From NCBI RefSeq assembly GCF_034479635.1, contig NZ_CP140153.1:813501-877500 (forward strand): a stretch of DNA of 64,000 nt. Direction: 5' to 3'. The notes beneath the pieces are model-generated. The model was not told the origin of the DNA, searched no databases, and worked only from the letters and a program-made list of their open reading frames with translations. This document shows, in pieces, positions 51,006 to 53,528 of this stretch. The DNA comes from Guyparkeria halophila (lineage in GTDB: Bacteria > Pseudomonadota > Gammaproteobacteria > Halothiobacillales > Halothiobacillaceae). Made by a program: the position numbers and the translations under genes. Numbering within the stretch: the first letter of the stretch is position 1; every line of letters starts with the position of its first letter.

Positions 51006-51260
51006 ATGGAAGTCCTGTTTCTGTTCGTGCCGTTGAGCATGCTGGTGGTCGCGGGCCTGGTCTGGGCCGCGTTCTGGGCGATCCGGAACAATCAGTACGA
51101 GGACCTGGAAGGTCCGGCACACCGTATTCTCATGGACGATGACGACCCCAAGATCCCGACCAATCAGGAGACGCAAGGCGCGGACGCGCCCGACGCCGAA
51201 AGCGCTGGCCGAGCGCGTCACGAGGCGGGGGGAAAGTCACCGCGCGCGGGTGGCGAATAA
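51006..51260 (+). CDS. ccoS: cbb3-type cytochrome oxidase assembly protein CcoS
   Basis: The 84-residue protein has one membrane helix (LFVPLSMLVVAGLVWAAFWAI) followed by NNQYEDLEGPAHRILMDDD, the CcoS signature. CcoS is needed to insert cofactors into cbb3 oxidase. The C-terminal 35 residues are hydrophilic and longer than in short homologues. It is away from any ccoNOPQ or ccoGHI genes in this window. ATG 51006 has GGAG upstream. Confidence 0.88.
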   Translation: MEVLFLFVPLSMLVVAGLVWAAFWAIRNNQYEDLEGPAHRILMDDDDPKIPTNQETQGADAPDAESAGRARHEAGGKSPRAGGE

Positions 51261-51329: not shown

Positions 51330-51431
51330 ATGAAAGACTTCTTCAACTTCGACAACTTCGCGTTCACGTTCATCGTCGGCCTGATCGTGTTTTCCTGGCT
51401 GAGCTTCCTGAGCGTCATCTTCTTCGGCTGA
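51330..51431 (+). CDS. 33-residue phenylalanine-rich membrane peptide
   Basis: A short frame starts after GGGAGGAACCAGAC and encodes 33 residues: MKDFFNFDNFAFTFIV followed by a hydrophobic helix (GLIVFSWLSFLSVIFFG). Ten residues are Phe. The strong ribosome binding site, one clean membrane helix, and the terminator placed 35 bases later argue for a real gene. I do not recognise a family; it sits between ccoS and rpoH. Confidence 0.65.
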   Translation: MKDFFNFDNFAFTFIVGLIVFSWLSFLSVIFFG

Positions 51432-51524: not shown

Positions 51525-52409
51525 TCAGGCCGGCTGGGGCAGCGCGGTGCGCAGCTTCTTGAGTGCTGCCGTCTCAATCTGGCGGATGCGCTCCGCCGAC
51601 ACGCCGTACTCGTCGGCCAGCGTCTGCAGGGTAGCCTTGGGCTCGTCCAGCCAGCGACGGGAAAGGATGTCGCGGCTGCGCTCATCGAGCGTCGAAAGGG
51701 CGGCGGTCATCGCCTCGACCCGATCGTCGTCGTCGCGCTGCGAGGCGATGTCCTCGACCGAAGGCGCGTCCTGGTCGACCATGATCTGCTCGTAGGACGG
51801 GCCCTCGCCATCCTCCGAACCGTCGTACGCCGGGGTGTCGAGACCCATGTCACGCCCGTAGAGCCGGGCCTCCATGGTCATGACCTCGCGCTCGGGCACG
51901 TCGAGCTCCTCGGCCATCGCCTCGGCTTGTGACTTGCTCAGCCAGCCGATGGAATTCTTCATCTGGCGCATCTTGAAGAACAGCTTGCGCTGCGCCTTGG
52001 TGGTTGCCACCTTGACGATCCGCCAGTTCTTGAGAATGTACTCGTGGATCTCGGCGCGGATCCAGTGCACCGCGAACGTCACCAGGCGGACCTTCTGGTC
52101 CGGATCGAAGCGCTTGACCGCCTTCATCAGGCCGATGTTGCCTTCCTGGATCAGATCGGCCAGCGGCAGGCCGTAGCCCCGGTAGCCTCGCGCGACATGC
52201 ACGACGAACCGCAGGTGACCGAGCACGAGCTTCTGTGCCGCCTCGATATCACCGGTTTCCTTCAGTCGATGGCCCAGCGCCTGTTCTTCCTCGACGGAGA
52301 TGACGGGTAGACGACGCACTTCGTTGAGGTATTGCGACAACGAATCGCCGATCACCGGCATGGTCATGCCGGCGGACGGGTTGATGTCCCGCGATTTGTT
52401 GTCTGTCAT
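51525..52409 (-). CDS. rpoH: Heat-shock sigma factor RpoH (sigma-32)
   Basis: The 294-residue sigma-70 family factor matches RpoH. It has region 2 (LVLGHLRFVVHVARGYRGYG, LADLIQEGNIGLMKAVKRFDP), the RpoH box QRKLFFKMRQMK, and region 4 (LADEYGVSAERIRQIETAALKKL). ATG 52409 (MTDNKSRD) gives the family start; ATG 52430 with GAGG upstream would add seven residues. A perfect CIRCE operator lies upstream. The rpoH-ftsX-ftsE-ftsY order is conserved in gammaproteobacteria. Confidence 0.97.
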   Translation of the reverse strand: MTDNKSRDINPSAGMTMPVIGDSLSQYLNEVRRLPVISVEEEQALGHRLKETGDIEAAQKLVLGHLRFVVHVARGYRGYGLPLADLIQEGNIGLMKAVKRFDPDQKVRLVTFAVHWIRAEIHEYILKNWRIVKVATTKAQRKLFFKMRQMKNSIGWLSKSQAEAMAEELDVPEREVMTMEARLYGRDMGLDTPAYDGSEDGEGPSYEQIMVDQDAPSVEDIASQRDDDDRVEAMTAALSTLDERSRDILSRRWLDEPKATLQTLADEYGVSAERIRQIETAALKKLRTALPQPA

Positions 52410-52474
52410 CTGGCTGCCTGCTGTGTGCATTCTCTCGCCTCGCAAGTATCCCAATCGTGTCGTAGCCTCATATG

Positions 52475-52501
52475 TTAGCACTCGCGATGTGAGAGTGCTA
52501 A
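52475..52501. promoter_or_regulatory. CIRCE operator (HrcA binding site) upstream of rpoH
   Basis: TTAGCACTC, nine bases (GCGATGTGA), GAGTGCTAA is an exact match to the CIRCE consensus with its standard 9-base spacer. It lies 44-65 bases before the rpoH start, where an HrcA repressor would block transcription. HrcA is not encoded in the window. Confidence 0.95.
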
Positions 52502-52565
52502 ACGCGGGGCAAGTTCCACGGACCGCGGGTCAGAACGGTGAGACTAATCCACCCATCGATAAAAA

Positions 52566-53528
52566 TCATGGCGTGCTCAGCCGGCCGATATAGAACCGTC
52601 CGATGACCTGGGCCGACAGCCAGCCAAGCAGGGCGCCGGCGGTCATCAGGAGCAGGACCAGCGCCGGGTCGAGCTGGGGCGAGATGGCCGCGCCGTAGGA
52701 CGCGGCGAAGCGCTCGATCGGACCCGAGGTGACCGACAGGGCCAGGCCGACCAGCCCGCTGGCCACCAATCCGCCGAGCAGGCCGCTCAGCGTGCCGTCG
52801 TAGAGCAGCGGGCGCAGCATGTAGCGTTCCGTGCCGCCGATCAGCGCGATCAGTGCGATCTCGCGGCGGCGCTCGTGCAGTTCGAGCCTCAGGGTGTTGC
52901 CGACGACGAACACCACGGTCATGCCCAGCAGGATCAGGAGCCACCAGCCCAGTTCGTCGAAGAAGGCGCGGATCTGCTCGAGGCGCTGGATCCAGTCGTC
53001 CCCGGAGGAAAATTCGGCCACGGCTGGCTGTTCGCGCAGACTCTCGGCCAGTGCCAGACGGGTGTCGGGGCGCGCGTCGCTCAGGGTCAGTTCGATCACC
53101 CACGGCAGCGGGTTGGACTCGAGTGCCTCCAGGCCATCGATGTGCAGTCGCTCGGTCAGCGCCTCCAGACCCTCCTCGGGCGGGATGACGCGTTGCTCGG
53201 CCACGGTCGCCTGTCGGTCGAGCCAGTCGCGCAGTGTCTGGCGTGCGGTCTCGTCGGCATCGGTGGCCAGGTAGATGTCCATGCGGGCGGCGTCGCTCAT
53301 CCAGATGGCGCCCAGCCGCTCGACTTGGTGGCCGAGGGTCATCACCAGCGCGGGCAGGCTGAGCACGACTCCCAGCACCAGGATGGTGGCCCAGGCACCG
53401 ACCGGGCGTCGGATCAGTCGCGCAAAGGCCCCGCGCAGGCACTGGCGATGGTGACGCCGCCAGGCTGCAAGCGGTCGCCGGCTCTTCTCGCTGTTGCCGC
53501 GAGCGTCGTTGGTTGCCGTGGCACTCAT
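52566..53528 (-). CDS. ftsX: Cell division protein FtsX
   Basis: The 320-residue FtsX has a basic cytoplasmic N-terminus, a first helix at about 46-65 (GAWATILVLGVVLSLPALVM), a periplasmic domain, and three more helices after residue 195. With FtsE it controls peptidoglycan amidase activation at the septum. It overlaps ftsE by 4 bases. Confidence 0.94.
   Translation of the reverse strand: MSATATNDARGNSEKSRRPLAAWRRHHRQCLRGAFARLIRRPVGAWATILVLGVVLSLPALVMTLGHQVERLGAIWMSDAARMDIYLATDADETARQTLRDWLDRQATVAEQRVIPPEEGLEALTERLHIDGLEALESNPLPWVIELTLSDARPDTRLALAESLREQPAVAEFSSGDDWIQRLEQIRAFFDELGWWLLILLGMTVVFVVGNTLRLELHERRREIALIALIGGTERYMLRPLLYDGTLSGLLGGLVASGLVGLALSVTSGPIERFAASYGAAISPQLDPALVLLLMTAGALLGWLSAQVIGRFYIGRLSTP

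Follow-up and report, generated by a model that had tools for sequence, protein, structure and literature searches.

The window, by which we mean the whole 64,000-nucleotide stretch of Guyparkeria halophila DNA that was analysed, carries rpoH, the gene for sigma-32, behind its neighbour ftsX. RpoH was identified with TIGR02392 (E 7e-115, above the curated cut-off). We set the start of rpoH at ATG 52430 by aligning 11 species of the genus, in which GAGGCGAG is conserved before this codon; the start was moved there because the internal ATG 52409 is absent from some species of the genus. The two genes are separated by a gap of 135 bp, and within it lies a perfect CIRCE operator, TTAGCACTC-N9-GAGTGCTAA, in which 18 of 18 arm bases are matched. 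This confirms the exact CIRCE that the preliminary description had reported just upstream of rpoH. With the conserved start at 52430 rather than 52409, the operator stands 44 bp before rpoH. Since ftsX and rpoH both lie on the minus strand, rpoH is the sole gene downstream of the operator, and we therefore ruled out that it serves another gene. The features of the locus are as follows.

52566..53528, minus strand: ftsX, co-directional upstream neighbour, ending at 52566 (order ftsE-ftsX-rpoH; TIGR00439, E 5e-65, under the curated cut-off)
52511..52517, minus strand: predicted sigma-E -35 box GGAACTT, at a fixed distance upstream of CIRCE (comparative)
52496..52501, minus strand: TTAGCA, a weak -35-like sequence within the left arm of CIRCE and 18 bp ahead of TAACAT, outside the calls of the sigma-70 consensus scan
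52490..52494, minus strand: predicted sigma-E -10 box TCTCA (TCnnA), formed where the CIRCE left arm runs into the spacer, 16 nt after GGAACTT
52475..52501, no strand assigned: CIRCE operator (exact match; arms invariant at rpoH across the genus)
52472..52480, minus strand: TGCTAACAT, extended -10 of a predicted second promoter of housekeeping type, its TGCTAA supplied by the CIRCE right arm (comparative)
52442..52456, minus strand: leader motif GATTGGGATACTTGC, lying after CIRCE and ahead of the rpoH start codon (genus alignment)
51525..52430, minus strand: rpoH, start ATG 52430, internal ATG 52409 (TIGR02392; genus alignment)

The leader motif is kept in most of the genus and has no match in Rfam.

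The operator and its repressor in the genome

A scan of the window allowing up to 3 mismatches returned this one CIRCE match, where shuffled sequences lead one to expect 0.02, and a perfect CIRCE is expected by chance at about 4e-5 sites per 2.45 Mb genome. These figures rule out a chance origin of the palindrome.

The genome is a single contig of 2.45 Mb, and it encodes the repressor that the preliminary description had invoked: hrcA is present next to grpE (PF01628, E 1.9e-61), and the DNA-binding domain of HrcA was detected in its product as well. We found exactly three CIRCEs genome-wide at up to 3 mismatches. The rpoH site has none and is the sole perfect operator; the others lie at groES (776394-776420, 1 mismatch) and at hrcA-grpE (2 mismatches), in keeping with the earlier expectation of such sites at groES and dnaK. 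The groES operator directly follows CTTGAAA...CCTACTA, which resembles the sigma-32 consensus as given in PMC545781. An RpoE-type sigma factor is also encoded (TIGR02939, 260.8 bits, cut-off 236).

Conservation of the operator and co-occurrence with hrcA

All 11 genomes of the genus carry a perfect CIRCE at rpoH; its arms are invariant, while the spacer and the flanks vary. We then compared 114 genomes of the class with rpoH, each of a different family code, in which the operator was sought within 350 bp. Where the genome bears hrcA, 78 of 85 rpoH loci have an operator, versus 5 of 30 where it does not (Fisher 2.5e-14); 73 of the 78 have at most 2 mismatches. Shuffled upstream regions from this sample yielded nothing within 3 mismatches of CIRCE. 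Some of the exceptional loci (7 with hrcA and no recognisable site, 5 with a site and no hrcA) may reflect assembly gaps. A second set of 50 named genomes was scanned for hrcA, which was found in 27; the 23 without it are for the most part enterics, vibrios, Haemophilus and the like. Among the loci listed for this set, no hrcA-less rpoH has the operator and most hrcA-bearing ones do. The loci of the contig scan, at least 80, are a sample. The RpoH tree offers 18 independent pairs with a difference in hrcA. CIRCE changed in the same direction in about 13.5 of them and in the opposite direction in about 0.06 (median p 2.4e-4), and when the test was confined to well-supported branches 4 pairs remained, too few for power.

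The central proposal of the preliminary description, control of rpoH by HrcA, thus withstood the two refuting conditions checked here, lack of hrcA and lack of the palindrome in relatives. That description had treated a CIRCE at rpoH as unusual. Given the 78 of 85 loci with hrcA against 5 of 30 without, the rpoH CIRCE is no local oddity and, judged from the genomes compared, is widespread in HrcA-bearing Gammaproteobacteria, beta lineages included. A CIRCE at rpoH is, on the same comparison, the normal state among HrcA-bearing relatives, and E. coli, which has no HrcA, is an exception. Nor was the association without precedent, as a CIRCE at Geobacter sulfurreducens rpoH was predicted in 2004 (PMC545781, Table 8). 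As here, that operator is a perfect CIRCE near rpoH (-51), in a genome that also has CIRCEs at groESL and hrcA-grpE-dnaK-dnaJ (PMC545781). Unlike here, the organism belongs to another phylum and the site is a computational prediction, and the part of the description that covers it includes no promoter overlay (PMC545781). Our literature search, which covered papers outside subscription, found no description of a beta- or gamma-proteobacterial rpoH CIRCE or of its fusion with a sigma-E promoter.

Two observations on individual lineages may be added. One hrcA-bearing genome of the class sample (G126, locus L212) has four perfect CIRCEs, none of them upstream of rpoH. Some Xanthomonadaceae rpoH operators carry a symmetric variant, TTAGCAGTC-N9-GACTGCTAA, which is perfect in L024:2921-2947 and has one further change in L020:2925-2951; such a symmetric change suggests a co-evolved HrcA specificity.

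Pseudoalteromonas offers a more extreme arrangement. We scanned 40 genomes at up to 2 mismatches: a single CIRCE was found in 37, a weak second site accompanies it in two, and the remaining genome has no CIRCE. All 30 of the CIRCEs that we fetched lie at rpoH, 43-49 bp upstream (loci L307, L321-L349). The closeness to rpoH is as in our window; the difference is that rpoH is practically the only site and that the sigma-E -35 is absent from its usual place. In P. luteoviolacea, the one species concerned, HrcA is strongly divergent (L304:2208-3152; PF01628, E 1.2e-11, 314 aa) and encoded beside grpE.

These data bear on the idea that the operator is a relic, inherited with little current effect on rpoH. 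In model enterics, translation and protein stability are the main determinants of the sigma-32 level, so control of transcription might matter little. A site without effect, however, fits poorly with arms that are fully invariant in 11 of 11 species while spacer and flanks vary, with the loss of the operator along with hrcA, and with the retention of the rpoH CIRCE in Pseudoalteromonas as practically the sole site. We consider a relic improbable.

The operator overlaps two predicted promoters

The described sigma-E elements are GGAACTT and TCAAA boxes (PMC4890791). The window contains GGAACTT-N16-TCTCA, in agreement with GGAACTT and TCnnA at a separation of about 16 nt, and GGAACT is kept upstream of the rpoH CIRCE in 11 of 11 genomes of the genus. 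Across the class, GAAC lies 14-16 nt upstream of the CIRCE at 57 of 83 rpoH sites but at 0 of 37 groES sites. The -10 region behaves similarly: the third spacer base is A, which completes TCnnA together with the last left-arm bases, at 64 of 83 rpoH sites versus 6 of 37 groES sites. The two boxes are linked over all 129 rpoH sites, since the -10 A accompanies 73 of the 77 sites with the -35 GAAC and 15 of the 52 without it (p 8e-16). A left-arm A3 to G asymmetry was considered as a sign of promoter use and dropped, being about equally frequent at groES.

We also ran a composite search for GGAACT-N8-14-CIRCE independently of rpoH in 275 genomes of the class, with a reversed control. The composite was found once per genome in 39 of the 275 and never in the control, with spacings of only 9-11, and the composite sites that were fetched all lie upstream of rpoH (30/30).

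A second promoter is suggested at the other end of the operator. A sigma-70 consensus scan (TTGACA/TATAAT, at least 9 of 12) of 52300-52750 gave no promoter call, and a sigma-70 consensus promoter at the site was accordingly rejected. The only conserved sigma-70-like element in the relatives is the extended -10 TGCTAAnAT, and T at +3 after the right arm, which gives TGCTAAnnT, is present at 74 of 83 rpoH sites versus 6 of 37 groES sites. As the scan made no call, the evidence for the second promoter comes from conservation among relatives.

The classical groESL CIRCE, with the same operator arms and the same repressor and present in this genome too, is laid out differently. The groES CIRCEs of the class (L259-L301) directly follow a CTTGAC-(about 16)-CCCTATtA promoter, so that the operator stands behind a CTTGAC/CCTAT-type promoter, whereas the rpoH CIRCE itself forms part of the predicted promoter elements. 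This fusion of an rpoH CIRCE with a core promoter, as deduced from the aligned sites, is new here.

The overlay also speaks to the suggestion that the palindrome is a hairpin at the 5' end of rpoH mRNA, acting in stability or thermosensing, or a terminator of ftsX, and not an HrcA site. A perfect dyad with 9-bp arms between ftsX and rpoH would suit either role. However, transcripts from either predicted promoter would start at or beyond the right arm and therefore would not contain the full hairpin; the T-run of a terminator is absent, and the sole terminator-like call in 52300-52750 lies elsewhere. There is no Rfam match near the palindrome, and its presence tracks hrcA. We rejected the leader and terminator readings, which appear very improbable.

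Relation to the E. coli rpoH promoter P3

The E. coli ftsX-rpoH interval contains GAACTT-N16-TCTGA and no CIRCE. E. coli rpoH P3 is a known sigma-E promoter (PMC8103513, PMC2215328), and it was through this promoter that RpoE was discovered (PMC8103513). P3 and the window thus share sigma-E -35 and -10 boxes, a 16-nt spacer and a position between ftsX and rpoH, and they differ in that E. coli lacks both the CIRCE and HrcA. Similar boxes are found at other rpoH genes without hrcA: GAACT-N16-18-TCnnA occurs at 16 of 23 such loci in the named set and 6 of 30 in the class sample, where about 0.3 would be expected per set. At some hrcA-less loci a half-decayed operator accompanies intact sigma-E boxes, for example L154 with TTGGCACTCTTATTTGTTGATGCTAAA. 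We infer that the enteric P3 descends from a CIRCE/sigma-E composite.

It is possible that the operator is real but acts on the housekeeping promoter only, with GGAACTT/TCnnA unused by sigma-E in this bacterium. The region upstream of its own rpoE shows no clear GGAACTT, and the sigma-E -35 is missing from its fixed position at many rpoH CIRCEs (about one third in the class sample, more than half in the named set). Set against this are the conservation of GGAACT throughout the genus, the co-occurrence of -35 and -10 at a fixed spacing of 16-17 nt, a layout equal to that of the E. coli sigma-E promoter P3 (PMC8103513), and the RpoE encoded in this genome. We regard control of the housekeeping promoter alone as unlikely.

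A model for heat-shock control of rpoH

Our results argue that HrcA represses rpoH through a CIRCE embedded in the promoter, with relief by heat and a feed-forward architecture; we put the probability of this reading at roughly 0.8. In the bacterium studied here, HrcA very probably shuts off the sigma-32 gene. HrcA bound to CIRCE would cover each promoter's -10 region and so occlude sigma-E and housekeeping polymerase alike. Elsewhere, HrcA releases its operator upon heat or GroE titration, and either event would be predicted to take HrcA off the rpoH CIRCE. The HrcA of C. jejuni has been reported as an intrinsic thermosensor (PMC8533110). After release, rpoH would be transcribed by sigma-E polymerase, housekeeping polymerase or both, and sigma-32 would then aid transcription of groESL and of the dnaK genes; the CIRCEs of these targets would be relieved at the same time.

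The preliminary description had placed the two heat-shock circuits in simple series. Because groES and hrcA-grpE each retain a CIRCE, this must be revised: HrcA would act in parallel on rpoH and on sigma-32 targets, which would make the circuit a feed-forward loop, not a plain chain, with HrcA on top. Envelope stress would be the second input, and it would enter at the same DNA, since the rpoH CIRCE lies inside the predicted sigma-E promoter. If so, one 45-bp promoter would be the meeting point of the repressor, envelope-stress and sigma-32 pathways.

Sigma-32 control is usually taught from E. coli, an organism without HrcA. We judge it slightly better than an even bet that the model extends to HrcA-bearing Gammaproteobacteria in general, beta lineages included: HrcA would top the heat-shock circuit, a CIRCE-core promoter would gate transcription of rpoH by sigma-E and by the housekeeping polymerase alike, E. 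coli P3 would be what remained after the loss of hrcA, and the HrcA of Pseudoalteromonas would be a dedicated sigma-32 repressor. Should most HrcA-bearing relatives prove to gate rpoH in this way, the circuit of E. coli would be derived. Pseudoalteromonas, with rpoH as practically its sole HrcA site, provides a natural case.

A small membrane peptide near rpoH

A 33-aa membrane peptide, MKDFFNFDNFAFTFIVGLIVFSWLSFLSVIFFG, is encoded on the plus strand at 51330-51431 of the window, after the cbb3 oxidase maturation gene FixS/CcoS (approximately 51006-51260). Most of the genus retains it, as do more distant relatives, and it is possibly a small oxidase subunit.
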